A stretch of 64,000 nt of DNA from Desulfobacterales bacterium (GTDB taxonomy: Bacteria > Desulfobacterota > Desulfobacteria > Desulfobacterales > JAEINQ01): the NCBI GenBank assembly GCA_016342285.1, contig JAEINQ010000002.1, positions 126,001-190,000 on the forward strand. Direction: 5' to 3'. The notes beneath the pieces were generated by a model. The model was not told the DNA's origin. It saw only the letters and a list, made by a program, of their open reading frames with translations, and made no database searches. Below, piece by piece: positions 7,359-43,965 of the stretch. Both the position numbers and the translations under genes were made by a program. How positions within the stretch are numbered: the first letter of the stretch is position 1; the number at the start of each line of letters is the position of its first letter.

Positions 7359-8057
7359 TCACCACAGCCCCGGATCAAACCGCACGGCCCGCACCCGCGT
7401 GTGCAGGTCGATGGTCCGGTCGCCGTCGGCCACGGAGAGGCGAATATCCACCACATTCAGGCCCATTCGGGTACAGGCAAAGGCCGTCACATGGTCGATC
7501 ACCACCCGTGGCGGCTGGGTGTCGGTGGCAATGGCGGTGGCATAGTCCGGAAGGGTTTCGGTCAGTTTCCAGTTGGTCCCATCGGTTTTGTCCAGGGCGA
7601 AAAGGACCCTGGATTCGGGCAGTCCGGCGTCTTCATTGACCCGGCCGTCGCCATCCATATCGGCGTCCGGGCGTCCGTCGCCGGCGGCCACATAGGCCAG
7701 GGTGGCGTTGTTCCGGGTGTCGAGAAGGCGCTCGCTGACCTCCAGCCTTTCCACTGGCGCGTCGGATGCCGGATCAAAGAGATAGTCCGTATCGGCCACG
7801 AACCGGACCAGGCGCTCCATGGCAAACCGTGACCGGGCCACCAGAGCCTGCTCTTTGCGGGTGTGATCATAGGCGGCCAGGCCGGTGCCGAACGTCTGGT
7901 ACAAGCCGGAAAAGGCGATTCCCATGAGAACCAGGGCGATGAGCAGTTCAAAAAGGGTAAACCCGGCGGTGCCGGTCAGAGCCGCGGGGGGGCCGGGAGG
8001 CAGAAAGGCGCGGCATATCCGCTTCGGCCTCACAGGGCCCTGGCTGGCTTTAGTCAT
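7359..8057 (-). CDS. GspJ/PilW-like minor pseudopilin
   Basis: Prepilin of 232 residues. The prepilin peptidase site [18 protein letters not shown] has Glu at +5 and is followed by a hydrophobic helix and a large globular C-terminal domain, as in GspJ/PilW. The ATG at 8057 is chosen because it overlaps the preceding stop by 8 bases (ATGACTAA), which suggests translational coupling to the GspI-like gene. The leader before the cleavage site is about 30 residues. An acidic run with [13 protein letters not shown] (near 140) resembles a calcium-binding loop; calcium sites are known in several pseudopilins, but here this is inference. The stop abuts the 55-unit heptamer array. Confidence 0.88.
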
Positions 8058-8625
8058 CGGTCTTAAGGGTGCTGAACCCGGCGGTCTCCAGACGTACGGT
8101 GATCTCCAACAGCCCGCCCAGCCCGGTGCCGGCGTCGGTGATGTCCACAATGGGGGTGAACGTCTGGCCTTGAAACGCGACGGTTTCCTTGCCGGCTTCC
8201 TCGGCCGAGCCCAAGAGGGTGGCAAGGTCCACGGCATTGCCCTGGTTGGCGGAAAGGGTTTCAAAATCCAGGGACGTCACCCGGTTGAGGGTGCCCCGGG
8301 CCTGGTTGGCCATCACCAGCATTCGCCCCTGGGCATCGACAGCCCCCAATGACGGGGCAAAGGCGTCCATCATGGGAACCAGGGCCAGGGCCATGAGCAG
8401 GATCGCCACCAGCACTTCAGCCAGGAGAAAGCCCTGCTGCCCTCGGGCTGCCGAAGGGCAAAGCCGGGCAATATGGAGATAGCAACCGGGGGCGGAAGAC
8501 CGTGCTTGTTGTTGTGGGTGGTGGATCGGTGGGCGCCGGGGATGAGCGGTGCGGAGGCCGCGCCCGTCAGGGGGGGGTAAAATCCGGAAGCATGGATGGG
8601 GCGTTGGGTGTGAAACGACAACCAT
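8050..8625 (-). CDS. GspI/PilV-like minor pseudopilin with a long leader
   Basis: Protein of 191 residues. The prepilin motif RGQQG/FLLAEVLVAILLMAL has Glu at +5. The only usable start in frame is the ATG at 8625; no GTG or TTG lies between it and the motif. The predicted leader is therefore 65 residues, far longer than the usual 6-25. The region upstream (8626-8705) borders a dispersed repeat, so the original start may have been displaced. The C-terminal domain is short, as in GspI. Confidence 0.82.
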   Translation of the reverse strand: MVVVSHPTPHPCFRILPPPDGRGLRTAHPRRPPIHHPQQQARSSAPGCYLHIARLCPSAARGQQGFLLAEVLVAILLMALALVPMMDAFAPSLGAVDAQGRMLVMANQARGTLNRVTSLDFETLSANQGNAVDLATLLGSAEEAGKETVAFQGQTFTPIVDITDAGTGLGGLLEITVRLETAGFSTLKTDD

Positions 8626-39241: not shown

Positions 39242-39326
39242 AACCCCGGCGTAGGTCGGCCGGGGTTCCGAAACGCCATCGCCGCTATATATGGCGGCAA
39301 TCCGGCTCTATAAGCCGGCTTTCTTT
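39242..39326. terminator. Three consecutive hairpins between convergent genes
   Basis: Stem 1 is AACCCCGGC/GCCGGGGTT (39242-39250/39259-39267). Stem 2 is GCCGCT/GGCGGC (about 39281-39298). Stem 3 is CCGGCT/AGCCGG (39302-39307/39313-39318), followed by CTTTCTTT. This can terminate both the dehydrogenase gene and the convergent rhodanese gene. Confidence 0.7.
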
Positions 39327-39753
39327 ACTCGACGGGATACCCCGCCTTTTCCCACGCCAGCCAACCACCATCGACATTTTTGATGTTTTTATATCCCATT
39401 TTGCAAAGTGTGCAGGTGGCCAGGCACCCGCGGCCACCTGTCTTGCAGTACATCAAAATCGGTGTTGCTTTGTCGTTAATTTGTTTGTCGATTTTGAATT
39501 CCAGCAAGCCTCGTGGAATATTGATCGACCCGGGGACATGGCCCATTTTATATTCCTTGCTCGTACGGCAATCCAGGAAGACAGACCCCTCTTTGTCAAA
39601 AATTTCTTTGGCCTCCGAGACGGATACTTCACAGATCTGCTTTTTGGCTTCACTGACAATCTCTTTGGCTGTCATATCCGCGGCCAGAGCCACAGGAATT
39701 GTCAGCAAAAGTGCCATAAAGACGGTTGTAAGCACATGCAAAATACGTTTCAT
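39325..39753 (-). CDS. Exported single-domain rhodanese
   Basis: 142 residues from the ATG at 39753, which has GAGGAGGT upstream. A signal peptide ends near ALAAD (about 25). The rhodanese domain has the active-site loop YCKTGGRGCLATCTLC (near 105-120) with the sulfur-carrying Cys first, followed by extra cysteines. CRTSKEYKMGHVPGSINIP is the typical upstream strand and helix. It is probably a periplasmic persulfide handler. It is the last gene behind the multiheme cytochrome in the same direction. Confidence 0.9.
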   Translation of the reverse strand: MKRILHVLTTVFMALLLTIPVALAADMTAKEIVSEAKKQICEVSVSEAKEIFDKEGSVFLDCRTSKEYKMGHVPGSINIPRGLLEFKIDKQINDKATPILMYCKTGGRGCLATCTLCKMGYKNIKNVDGGWLAWEKAGYPVE

Positions 39754-39875
39754 TGACCTACCTCCTCTATCGTTTGGCGTTAACAGCACATCCCACTCCA
39801 TGCGGCAAGTCCGAAGCCTTCACCCGCAAGCACAGATCGCCGCATCTCCACCTCTTGTTCCCAATGGCCACCCGT

Positions 39876-41225
39876 TTAATCTTCCCGTCGTTTTGTTGGT
39901 ATCCGGTCCGATGGCACAATAACGGTTTTGTTGGCATTCAAATACCTGGCTTCCACATCTTTAGCATTTAGAAACAGCCCTGATTTTCCATGGCAGTTAT
40001 TGCAGCTCCTATTCTGCGGTGTCTGCCGCCTGAGGTTGTGTGGTGTTGCCAGTTTCCAGGTCGGAAGCCGGTCAAAATTGGTAAGCCCGTCCTTGACGTA
40101 AAAGTTAAAGGAGTTCGGGTCCACGGGTACATGGCGGACCGGCACATACATTTCCGGCCTTCTGTCAGATCGCAATGGATTAAGTCCGATCTTGAAGTTC
40201 ATCGGAGACCCTTTGGTTTTGAAATATTTGAATCCGCTCTTATCCTTGCCGAAATGGCAGGCATAGCAATTTTTGTAGGGCTGGGAATGACACACCTGAC
40301 AGCTCACCCGGTCTTTATGAATCCAGTGGTTTTTTGCATTTTCCGATTTCATTTCATAGATCTTCTCATGGCAGTCTGAGCATTTGGGTCCGTTTTCCAC
40401 TTCGTAGCGATTTACATATGTCTTTCCGTCTCCGTGCATTTCGCCCGCCTTGTGGCATTTGCTGCATTTAAAATACTTCTCTTTATGAGCGTCAGGCTTG
40501 AGCCCCTTGTTTTTGCCGAAATACTCTTTTTCAATACGGCTACCGTGACACGCCGTACACACTTGCTGTGTGGGGGGCCTTTTCATAAACCGATGTCCCT
40601 CCAGAAGTCCGCCCTCAACCGACTCGGGCCGGCTGATATGGCACTGGCCGCAGCTGCTGTGACAAGATGTGCAGTGAGCCTCCCTGCCGGTATTCACCTT
40701 TGCAAAAACCTCTTTTTCTGTACCGGCACGGGTGTCGATCATTTTTTTAAAGGGTGCCAGACTGACGTGCAGGCTCGTCGAGTAATGCTCGGCGATCTCT
40801 TCGTGACACATACCGCACGTGTCCGAGGGGTCCGGATAGGACGGGTCCTTGACCACACCGGCATGTGCTTTCTTCCAGTCCGCTTCGCCAGGGTCGCCGC
40901 CGTGGCACTCTTCGCAACCGAGTTGACCGTGATTTTCATCTTCGGCGATTTCACTGTCGACAAATATTTTTTCATGCGGAGCCAACGGCTCCACCGCACC
41001 GCCTCAGCCCTCCCCTACGGTTTCGATGGAGGCACCGGGTTTGTCTTTGTTGTCAACGGCAATTTTTCGGGTGATTTCGATCAGCTTACGTGCATTGGTA
41101 TGACAGGTAAAACAGTGGTTTTCTTTTTCGGCGCAAAAGGCCGGTGTGCTGATTTGGAGCAGTAAGATACCAATTCCAGCAGCAAGAATCAAAAGGGTGA
41201 AACATTGAAAGCGTTTTCTTTCCAT
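39876..41225 (-). CDS. Exported 11-heme cytochrome c with in-frame UGA (candidate selenoprotein)
   Basis: 450 codons read as one frame. A signal peptide covers residues 1-31 (ending FCAEK). Eleven CxxCH heme sites follow: CFTCH before, and CEECH, CGMCH, CTSCH, CGQCH, CTACH, CSKCH, CSDCH, CQVCH, CYACH and CNNCH after, codon 74. Codon 74 is TGA (41004-41006), in frame, in the context VGEG-TGA-GGAVEPLAPHEK. No other stop occurs. Reading from the GTG at 40994 would lack both signal peptide and first heme, so two separate genes are unlikely. A hairpin right after the TGA has SECIS geometry. Either Sec is inserted, or a nonsense mutation has broken the gene. It is cotranscribed with a PstS-like protein and a rhodanese. 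Confidence 0.75.
40976..41006 (-). promoter_or_regulatory. Candidate bacterial SECIS element
   Basis: After the UGA, 17 bases lead to a 3-base loop GTT closed by an 8-bp stem GTGGAGCC/GGCTCCGC with one G-U pair. UGA-to-loop distance, stem length and a G at the first loop position fit the known rules for bacterial SECIS. Such hairpins can arise by chance in GC-rich DNA. Confidence 0.5.
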
Positions 41226-41247: not shown

Positions 41248-42048
41248 TCATTGGATCGGTACCATGCCCCTTCTCTTCATGATTGTTTTGCCGACCTCGG
41301 AAAGGGCAAAATCTACAAAGACCTTGACAGAACCGGTCGGATTTCCACGGGTGACGAAGGAAAATATTTGAGACAGGGGATAGTCCTTGTGTGTCGGCGG
41401 GATGCCGTCAACATTAATCATCTTGATTCCTTCACGACCGACAACAGCGCCCCTGGCGATAAATGAAATCGTTCCCGGTATTTGCTTGACCAGTTCGATA
41501 ATCTGGGTCGATTGGTAGGTTGTATAGTCATATTCGATCGTCTTCATCCGCATGACTTGACGGTGAAAGTTGTTATAGGCACCGGTATTCTTTCCCGGCA
41601 CGGTGAGCACAACGGGTTGATCGTGTCCTCCAAGCTGATTCCAGTTGGTAACATCTCGCCTGAATATTTCCCGAAGCTGCTTTTTGGTTACATTTTCGGT
41701 TACAGACGCTACGTTCACGATGACGGCCAACGCGTCTCTGCAGAAAGGGGTTTCGACATATCCGCTTTCCTTATGACTGAAGTGAAGATTGCGTGTGGTG
41801 CTGGCAATATCGCAGACCCCGTTCATCAGTCGATTGACGCAGGTTGGGGACGGGGCGATAAACAGATCGACACGAATACCGGTCGCCCGGGTGAAGGCTT
41901 CCAGACGTTCGGTTTCAAATGCCTCCGAGACTTGCGCCGAGCAGCTGTATCTTAGGGTTTCGTCGGCATGAATCGTCGGAGACACCGCCCCCAATTGAAC
42001 CAATATTAAAAAAACGACCCATATGATGACCCTGTGCGCGTTCTTCAT
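41248..42048 (-). CDS. PstS-like periplasmic substrate-binding protein
   Basis: 266 residues. A signal peptide ends near 28 (THADE). A PBP-like domain follows: LRYSCSAQVSEAFETERLEAFTR-type start, SPTCVNRLMNGVCDIASTTR, CRDALAVIVNVAS, and VTNWNQLGGHDQPVVLTVPGKNTGA with the anion-binding loop. No permease or ATPase gene is nearby, so it may be a sensor or a partner of the cytochrome rather than a phosphate importer. The pocket looks suited to an oxyanion, but which one cannot be told. It is the first gene of the operon after the sigma-54 promoter. Confidence 0.82.
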   Translation of the reverse strand: MKNAHRVIIWVVFLILVQLGAVSPTIHADETLRYSCSAQVSEAFETERLEAFTRATGIRVDLFIAPSPTCVNRLMNGVCDIASTTRNLHFSHKESGYVETPFCRDALAVIVNVASVTENVTKKQLREIFRRDVTNWNQLGGHDQPVVLTVPGKNTGAYNNFHRQVMRMKTIEYDYTTYQSTQIIELVKQIPGTISFIARGAVVGREGIKMINVDGIPPTHKDYPLSQIFSFVTRGNPTGSVKVFVDFALSEVGKTIMKRRGMVPIQ

Positions 42049-42630
42049 GTCGGTTCCTCCCTCAGACCGCTGTGTGGATAATCAACCTCGGTATACTTCC
42101 GGTTTCGCAGGGGAGACACCACTGTTTAAAAAATCACGCTATGCCCTCAACCTCTTCGGGACAATTCGGTATCTCACTACACCCGTGAACAGGAACTGAC
42201 TGGCGACTGCTATTAAATTCTGAATAAAAATAATTAGGTACGTTTTAAACGCGTTATGAAATGGAAGCTCAAAAAAAACTTGGGCGAAAGAAATTTATTG
42301 ATGCCTTTTGGTTAAAAACAGCAACAATTGTGCCGTTGCCAGGCTTTTTAAGAGGTCACTTTTTATCTATTTGAAATTAATTATTATTTTCAACGATCAG
42401 CTTGCCTTTCCGTTTAAGATGGGGTAAACAAAAAAAACAATATGCATCTTTTTTAGAATACTGAAGAACAAAATACATCTTAAGTCACATCGGAATTCTA
42501 GCCGGTACCGGTGTCAACCGTTGGCAGACAAACAGGCAAAACAGTTGGCGCCGGGCAATTGTTTCACGTTATCGGGGAAGCGCAGAAAAAGACAAAGCCG
42601 CGTTATCCCGGGACAGGAGTCTGTGATTGC
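42049..42630. other. 582-base divergent intergenic region
   Basis: It contains the sigma-54 promoter at 42320-42334. AT-rich DNA around 42220-42480 could be an upstream activator-binding and bending region. No gene is seen. Confidence 0.6.
42320..42334 (-). promoter_or_regulatory. Sigma-54 promoter (-24/-12) for the cytochrome operon
   Basis: The minus strand reads GGCAC-AATTG-TTGCT, matching the -24 (GGCAC) and -12 (TTGCW) elements at the required 5-base spacing. It lies about 270 bases before the PstS-like start, and a sigma-54 activator gene diverges from the same region. Confidence 0.7.
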
Positions 42631-43965
42631 ATGAAACCATCTGCAGAATCTCTCGTGGAAAGATACCAAACTATTCTGGACAGTATCACGGAGGGTGTCT
42701 ACTCGGTGAATCTGGACTGGCGGATTATCTACTTTAATCGTGCGGCGGAAAAGATTACCGGCATTCCCCGTAAAGACGCCATCGGGCAATCCTGTTCCAA
42801 GGTATTCCGCAGCAATGTGTGTAAAAACCAATGTGTGGTCAGGGAGACCTTGGGATCCAACCGGCCAGTCGTCAACAAGCCGGTCTATATTATACGGGCG
42901 GATCAAAAACGTATCCCCATCAGCGTGACCACCACCCTTTTGAAGGATTCCGGGAAAAAGGTTGTGGGCGGTGTTGTCACCTTCAGGGATCTGACGGATG
43001 TAAGCAAACTGAGAAAAGAATTACTAAGGCAGCATTCTTACGAGGATATCATCAGTAAAAATGCAAAAATGCACCGCATTTTTTCCATTCTGCCGCAGGT
43101 TGCCCATAGTCACAGCACCGTGTTGTTGAGAGGGGATAGCGGTACGGGAAAGGAAATTTTGGCCCGTGCCATTCACAACAACAGTCCCCAAAAAAAGGGC
43201 CCCTTTATTGCCGTCAACTGCGGGGCGCTTCCCGATAGCCTCTGCGAGTCGGAGCTTTTCGGTTACAAAGCAGGGGCTTTTACGGATGCCAAGAAAGACA
43301 AACCCGGCCGTTTTGCCCAGGCCCAGAACGGCACGCTCTTTCTCGATGAAATGGGGGATGTATCACCGGCCATGCAGATGAGACTTTTGCGGGTTCTGGA
43401 ACAAAGGCAATACGAACCCCTTGGTGCCACCAAGCCTGTCGCCACCAATGCCAGGATTGTCACGGCGACCCATCGGAACATTGAGAAAAGGGTCAAAGAA
43501 GGTAAGTTTCGAGAGGATCTGTTCTACCGAATTAATGTCGTCGAGATTACCCTGCCGCCACTTGCTGAACGAAAAGAAGATATCCCCCTGCTGGTAAACT
43601 ATTTTATCGACCGCTTCAACCGCCTGACGGGGAGGCATATCATCGGGGTTTCTCAGAAGACGATGGCATCCCTGCTGCTATACGATTGGCCGGGGAACGT
43701 CCGTGAACTTGAAAATGCCATTGAACGCGCCTTTGTTCTTTGTGAAAACGATATCATTCGCATGAGGTGCCTGCCGGATCGGGTGTTGCCTCCCTCGGCC
43801 ATCGCCACGATCTCACCTGGACTGACCCTTCAGGAAATAGAAAAACGTGCCATCCAGCAGGCCCTTGAACGCAATAATTGGAGAAAAGTTACAACCGCCA
43901 TGGAACTCGGCATCTATAAAAATACGCTCCGCCGAAAAATGATCCGCCTGGGTATCAAACCATAG
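42631..43965 (+). CDS. PAS-domain sigma-54-dependent transcriptional activator
   Basis: About 444 residues from the ATG at 42631; a GTG at 42511 would add 40 residues without a domain. A PAS domain (about 12-125) holds a cysteine group (SCSKVFRSNVCKNQCVVRE) that may sense redox state. The AAA+ domain has Walker A GDSGTGKE, the sigma-54 contact loop GAFTDA (in place of GAFTGA), and Walker B LFLDEMGD. A Fis-type HTH ends the protein (WRKVTTAMELGIYKNTLRRK). It is divergent from the cytochrome operon and very likely activates its sigma-54 promoter. Confidence 0.93.
   Translation: MKPSAESLVERYQTILDSITEGVYSVNLDWRIIYFNRAAEKITGIPRKDAIGQSCSKVFRSNVCKNQCVVRETLGSNRPVVNKPVYIIRADQKRIPISVTTTLLKDSGKKVVGGVVTFRDLTDVSKLRKELLRQHSYEDIISKNAKMHRIFSILPQVAHSHSTVLLRGDSGTGKEILARAIHNNSPQKKGPFIAVNCGALPDSLCESELFGYKAGAFTDAKKDKPGRFAQAQNGTLFLDEMGDVSPAMQMRLLRVLEQRQYEPLGATKPVATNARIVTATHRNIEKRVKEGKFREDLFYRINVVEITLPPLAERKEDIPLLVNYFIDRFNRLTGRHIIGVSQKTMASLLLYDWPGNVRELENAIERAFVLCENDIIRMRCLPDRVLPPSAIATISPGLTLQEIEKRAIQQALERNNWRKVTTAMELGIYKNTLRRKMIRLGIKP

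Follow-up and report, generated by a model that had tools for sequence, protein, structure and literature searches.

Selenocysteine (Sec) in a multiheme cytochrome is already known in kind. The closest described system is MccSep/ExtKL (NF040886, cyt_C_like_Sec; PDB 9wt8, 9wt9, 9wta-9wtc), which is likewise a multiheme c-type cytochrome with one Sec and has members in the same phylum as the locus described here, but it carries five CxxCH motifs (loci L168 and L171-L177) and its Sec lies near the C-terminus in an IPDGU motif. MccSep has been solved, including a U325A mutant (9wt9), i.e. the structure of a Sec multiheme cytochrome already exists; the ExtKL/NF040886 copy at 1483-2823 of L168, the copy for which this comparison was made, matches the PDB 'MccSep' with an E-value of 4.8e-153. 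A 2026 review (PMC13188914) tabulates 119 selenoprotein families, three of them multiheme or CXXCH families (ExtKL, the GSU2204 family and octaheme tetrathionate reductase), and the 11-heme architecture is absent from that table. Octaheme tetrathionate reductase (TIGR04315) is also a multiheme protein of sulfur compound chemistry, and Sec has been reported in it through GenBank annotation (PMC13188914). A rhodanese also appears beside other respiratory proteins: going by the model names, the operon of the multiheme cytochrome ExtM (NF040943) includes the rhodanese-like ExtH, and a study of sulfur disproportionators (PMC12142623) describes rhodanese-linked polysulfide reductase (Psr) operons, in which an exported rhodanese is likewise paired with a respiratory sulfur enzyme, although that enzyme is a different one and not a Sec cytochrome.

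The locus described here lies in a 64,000-nucleotide stretch of a Desulfobacterales genome assembly (hereafter the window) and encodes an 11-heme c-type cytochrome whose frame is predicted to be read through a UGA codon. No NCBIfam model (June 2026) scored over its cut-off for this cytochrome. MccSep/ExtKL matches the 11-heme profile weakly (E 2.5e-4, 171-297) and no NF040886 match at E<=1e-30 was found in the window's genome, which leaves the locus outside that family. At E<=0.1 the NCBIfam scan of the cytochrome returned no TIGR04315 match, while chain 1sp3, which we take to be octaheme tetrathionate reductase, matches the middle part of the profile weakly (E 8.8e-6). ExtM aligns with the 11-heme cytochrome in three short stretches only, scoring 37.5 bits where the cut-off is 800.

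The gene occupies 39876..41225 on the minus strand, in a frame that runs from an ATG at 41225 to a TAA at 39878-39876. Read-through translation gives 449 residues with 11 CxxCH motifs, and the sole internal stop is the TGA of codon 74 (41006-41004), confirming the sequence-only reading that the signal peptide with the first heme and the ten other hemes share one frame split only by this codon. The signal peptide (residues 1-32, 41130..41225, minus strand), predicted by eye from a basic start, a hydrophobic stretch and AFCA, precedes the UGA and is the sole export signal seen in the frame; helix 3-24 of the AlphaFold model falls within it. One heme motif, CFTCH (41100..41114, minus strand), is upstream of the UGA and ten CxxCH motifs are downstream. 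The predicted Sec codon itself (41004..41006, minus strand), identified from the translation and from relatives' loci, sits in the motif GEG-U-GG. In the family alignment Sec74 lies within a glycine loop and is itself kept like the heme ligands, nine His residues outside CxxCH are invariant against 11 hemes, and no conserved non-heme Cys partner for Sec74 is present, which makes it unlike a CxxU or UxxC thiol switch. The heme-free AlphaFold model of the cytochrome found no convincing match among solved structures.

Relatives are encoded by 332 stretches in named genomes, and the best 80 of these were kept and inspected. The codon-74 UGA is present at the site in all 80 inspected loci and TAA or TAG in none (0/80); 79 loci were scored by pattern and one, L155, by eye owing to a frameshift after the UGA. 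In L155 (681-930) the UGA and motif are intact and are followed by a frameshift in a T run, perhaps a sequencing error in a metagenome-assembled genome (MAG). Named carriers include Desulfosarcina alkanivorans (L086), D. widdelii PP31 (L087), Desulfobacula, Dethiosulfatarculus sandiegensis and two Spirochaetes MAGs. The Spirochaetes copies (L122, L124), each with an adjoining rhodanese, may reflect either transfer or binning error. At the order level a match was found in 24/194 genomes, giving 29 match rows, 26 of them with one TGA; reading of the TGA positions placed the UGA at the site in 26/26 matches that reach codon 74, and the three remaining rows stop short of it (one stop-free, two with TAA, both from one broken draft contig). 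A phylum-level search of 395 genomes gave 54 strong rows (E <=2.7e-40), and 50 of these contain one TGA, its position having been checked only for loci whose DNA was fetched; of the four without TGA, L067 spans the site with Tyr and three begin after it. A further 26 weak rows (E 3.7e-22 or worse) are stop-free, match only the middle of the cytochrome and are probably other cytochromes. The glycine motif that bears the UGA follows heme 1 and in most relatives reads G-x-G-U-(G/A)-G, and the UGA is kept in relatives down to 32-36% identity. Rows of the family alignment A4 were picked for UGA in the motif (two more, L079 and L080, were included manually), which makes the invariance of U there a matter of construction, but the order-level, phylum-level and 80-locus counts are independent of that choice.

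TGA ends only 124/373 of the long neighbouring open reading frames (ORFs) with a complete stop, and its presence at every inspected site is therefore not ordinary stop usage. Residues 34-73 have a pN/pS of 0.13-0.23 against eight relatives, with synonymous sites near saturation, and on this measure selection before the UGA is purifying, as it is after the UGA. A single genome could not tell whether an ordinary cytochrome gene had here acquired a nonsense mutation or been misassembled, particularly as the assembly is 8.51% contaminated, but recurrence of the same TGA throughout the named loci and the order-level matches that reach the site rules out the nonsense mutation that the initial reading had held open and, with purifying selection upstream, leaves this whole class of explanation with practically no probability.

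Just downstream of the UGA is a SECIS-type hairpin (40976..40994, minus strand), identified by folding, synonymous recoding, covariation and the published bSECIS limits. It starts 9 nt past the UGA, pairs 40994-40987 with 40983-40976 and presents a GUU loop at 40986-40984, and the 8-bp stem, GTT loop and 17 bases from UGA to loop that were initially described are confirmed on the sequence. Published bSECIS limits are an apical loop of 3-9 nt, an upper stem of 4-16 bp, a G in loop positions 1-2 and a distance of 16-37 nt from the UGA (PMC13188914); the hairpin lies within all of these with its G-first loop, 8 bp and 17 nt, so the SECIS-like spacing and early loop G of the initial reading hold. 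Of 104 family hairpins, 75 have the loop G 17 nt from the UGA, 11 have it at 18 or 20 and one, by pattern, at 8, while 17 are unmatched by the loop pattern and come from other subfamilies. The window's own hairpin is not exceptional alone when compared with synonymous recodings (z -0.81). The 104 hairpins together have a mean z of -1.15, with 8/104 above zero, versus -0.05 for an upstream control stretch (n=103), under a null whose codon usage was pooled from the same region and which is probably conservative. L115, for which a wrong TGA had been caught (its true site is GEGUCG), was left out of the hairpin sets.

Covariation was assessed in an alignment (A2) of 68 distinct hairpins drawn from 105 unique UGA contexts, the others being repeats or having a different loop or spacing. 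Paired cells make up 90.8% in the 68 sequences, versus 78.3% when shuffled and <=48.0% in slid structures. Double-change cells (56 versus 23.9 shuffled) and the covariation score (0.338 versus 0.167) were each reached by 0/500 shuffles, whereas the number of pairs with a double change (4 versus 2.9; 79/500 as high) and of pair types (10 versus 8.3; 54/500 as high) are within the shuffles, since the protein also constrains the 8-bp stem and leaves few of its pairs free to vary. Two middle pairs swap C-G/A-U and G-C/U-A in 23/68 and 30/68 sequences, and the protein text consequently mirrors itself while the stem is kept: GAG-CCG-TTG-GCT (EPLA) becomes GCT-CCG-TTG-GAG (APLE), i.e. EPLAP and APLEP. 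The Desulfosarcina stem codons are ACG-CCG-TTG-GCG (TPLA), and the outermost stem pair is unpaired in 22/68 relatives. Support for a SECIS function of the predicted hairpin is thus to be found in the family, and not in the window's hairpin alone.

The window's genome contains the complete set of sel genes that the initial reading proposed to look for: selA (613 bits, cut-off 268), selB (356 bits, cut-off 242), selC as tRNA-Sec (75.4, cut-off 47) and selD, which is over the cut-off in two copies (L162, L163), each with its own in-frame TGA. Given the contamination of the assembly, one of the two selD copies may be foreign. SelB is over the cut-off in 64/69 genomes with a cytochrome match, a count that covers cytochrome-match genomes only and includes one without the UGA (G519) and two with a partial gene (G007, G194). 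The exceptions are all drafts: G007 has a split match below the cut-off, the only match in G226 is below the cut-off and resembles an elongation factor, and G158, G450 and G469 have no SelB match at E<=1e-40. Decoding of the UGA as another amino acid, under a Trp or Gly code, might be read from the Trp found at the site in three database homologues, which are known from protein only and could equally reflect a genuine TGG codon or a gene predicted under a different code, but TGA terminates neighbouring ORFs and the genome has tRNA-Sec with selA, selB and selD, making such a code extremely improbable.

Gene callers divide the locus in two, into a short exported monoheme peptide ending at the UGA and a 10-heme protein that begins at a GTG just after it. 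The best 120 of 1511 database homologues mostly start directly past the UGA, most of those listed being ~340-378 aa long, having lost the signal peptide and first heme, and some of these truncated gene models bear the name sulfurtransferase. Attachment of c-type heme requires a signal peptide. Without read-through, the ten-heme part would be cut off from the one that exports the protein to the site of heme attachment, and two genes would explain neither a codon that is always TGA, never TAA or TAG, nor a hairpin that covaries, nor the ten database homologues that are one continuous protein. Two separate genes are therefore very improbable, if marginally less so than the two explanations above. 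With a UGA kept at one place, a hairpin that covaries, a full set of sel genes and an upstream coding stretch under purifying selection, the 11-heme cytochromes with a codon-74 UGA are almost certainly a selenoprotein family, and the selenocysteine between heme 1 and heme 2 put forward in the sequence-only reading is strongly supported by what the genomes encode.

Forms with another residue at the site are few. When residues 26-135 served as query, P0089 and P0096 alone spanned the site among the 120 listed of 150 homologues, and a distant-subfamily query found eight further spanning proteins among the 120 listed of 548; the ten come from 253 database homologues that were fetched. They have W (three), A (two), R (two), S, Y and C (one each) at the Sec site, P0096 being the sole Cys form (1/10), so that the customary selenoprotein criterion of Cys homologues has little purchase here. 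Together with L067 they indicate that Sec is not strictly needed for the fold. The homologue survey that had been suggested thus returned nearly all UGA, with the six residues just listed in the few unbroken spanning proteins, and the refuting case of homologues with only Ser or Ala did not arise. In a quick tree with long branches, P0089 and P0096 are nested within the Sec clade, as expected of loss, and the other eight fall in a distant subfamily, one group of which is Sec-free in 7/8 rows. The L067 relative (1423 onward, minus strand of the locus) is rhodanese-fused and reads GKGYMV at the site, with no UGA, in a genome that has SelB.

The best clue to the function of the cytochrome is its rhodanese partner, which the initial reading had not mentioned. 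The next gene downstream in the window (39325..39756, minus strand) encodes a single-domain rhodanese (PF00581, 81 bits) with a signal-like N-terminus, and it is kept in relatives: the next-downstream ORF is a Pfam rhodanese in 83/103 cases, these being distinct proteins, the window's included and identical ones counted once, with seven loci yielding no downstream ORF. Some of the 20/103 that are not rhodaneses are spurious ORFs or lie after a fused rhodanese, and the pick in L129 belongs to another multiheme gene. The rhodanese is fused to the C-terminus of the cytochrome in L025 and, judged by eye, is also fused in L026, L027, L034, L067 and L068. Its size varies with subfamily, at ~145 aa, ~193 aa or ~300 aa with two domains (L075), and a crude active-site Cys pattern matched 71/82 rhodaneses, missing some that do have Cys there. 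As the link persists to 32-36% identity, the two proteins would form one working unit, and their functional pairing is very likely on this gene-context evidence.

Other neighbours are less constant. A PstS-like periplasmic binding protein gene (41248..42048, minus strand), 22 nt upstream of the cytochrome, leads the probable operon. Of the 80 named loci, only L093 has a PstS-like relative beside the cytochrome (phmmer E<=1e-5), and L099 has a weak match ~5 kb away. In L132, L133 and L136 (about 7640-8320) a cytochrome b561 family gene is directly downstream in place of the rhodanese, and the best model for that of L132 is thiosulfate reductase cytochrome b, below the cut-off at 158.6 of 204 bits. 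Formate dehydrogenase-like genes occur in 11/80 loci at varying distance and strand, one representative having been identified. A divergent PAS-sigma54-activator regulator (42511..43965, plus strand, start codon uncertain), recognised from sequence and domain searches, has similar proteins in 28/80 named loci (phmmer), mostly divergent upstream; its PAS domain contains a Cys-rich stretch, SCSKVFRSNVCKNQC, that is perhaps a redox or metal sensor. The divergent promoter region contains a candidate sigma-54 type -24/-12 promoter, CGGCACAATTGTTGCT (42320..42335, minus strand), with 1 mismatch. The pattern as such is no commoner in the window than expected (9 matches at <=2 mismatches versus 18.55). 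In 21 intergenic regions the mean is 1.57 mismatches versus 3.57 in single-base shuffles, with per-region P <=0.03 in 12/21 and 0.05-0.11 in seven, and the matches in L086 and L123 (0.59) are at the level of chance.

The protein is probably an exported cytochrome with 11 heme motifs that uses UGA as Sec and donates electrons to sulfane sulfur brought by its rhodanese partner, a reading held with less assurance than the pairing itself. What happens at the selenium is a matter of lower confidence. Sulfane-sulfur chemistry at Sec74 has slightly less than even support, and a reductive direction for it is offered tentatively. Sec74 might instead be a structural or redox-tuning ligand, to heme iron or another metal, in a relay for metal, selenite or tellurite reduction; a metal or redox ligand had also been suggested in the initial reading. 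The lack of a conserved non-heme Cys partner, the shortfall of invariant His against 11 hemes, which leaves some ligands open, the weak similarity to ExtM of a selenite/tellurite operon and the partial similarity of the L075 rhodanese to ExtH (52.7 of 200 bits) would all suit such a relay; against it, the Ext models are far below their cut-offs and a rhodanese partner in several arrangements indicates sulfur, which renders the relay unlikely, though not negligible. It is about equally unlikely that the cytochrome-rhodanese unit runs oxidatively, with sulfide converted to sulfane sulfur at Sec, the rhodanese removing the sulfur and the hemes carrying electrons away. The chemistry is symmetric and gene neighbours do not set direction, although the formate dehydrogenase-like genes and the cytochrome b561 family genes of three loci suit electron supply and argue weakly for reduction.

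Given a partner that carries a persulfide, Sec74 is most simply read as a selenol that takes up sulfane sulfur beside reducing hemes, and the likeliest role would be that of a periplasmic sulfane-sulfur reductase with Sec as the sulfur-accepting residue. SelB would decode UGA74 aided by the hairpin just downstream, and the cytochrome and rhodanese, neighbouring or fused, would act as a single functional unit. The cysteine persulfide of the rhodanese may then pass its sulfur to Sec74, where the hemes may reduce the Se-S species with release of sulfide. Electrons might be supplied by the quinone pool or by formate, the weakest step of the model. In its fullest form, as a nearly obligate, unlisted Sec family in which the Sec74 selenol beside the heme chain reduces rhodanese sulfane sulfur to sulfide, Cys is no substitute and the sequence is partly dictated by the SECIS, the proposal is doubtful, though it is less so than either the relay or oxidative operation.

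What seems to be new is the 11-heme Sec family, its rhodanese link and the near lack of Cys forms. Selenoprotein discovery rests largely on Sec/Cys pairs, and the rarity of Cys replacement here would explain why searches of that kind missed the family. The deep-Sep study states that its filtering may discard selenoproteins that have no Cys homologues, and it screened D. widdelii PP31 as a test genome; in its main text the word cytochrome is absent. The family appears to have been overlooked, though D. widdelii PP31 carries the gene.

If the selenoprotein reading is true, a widespread selenoprotein would be added, given 332 stretches encoding relatives, the best 80 of them inspected, and gene models that begin too late to include the signal peptide and heme 1, some of them called sulfurtransferases, would be corrected. 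In sulfate reducers and syntrophs, the sulfur cycling of the periplasm would also become tied to selenium. Were the nearly obligate Sec reading true as well, the cytochrome would be a selenium-dependent enzyme of sulfur respiration.
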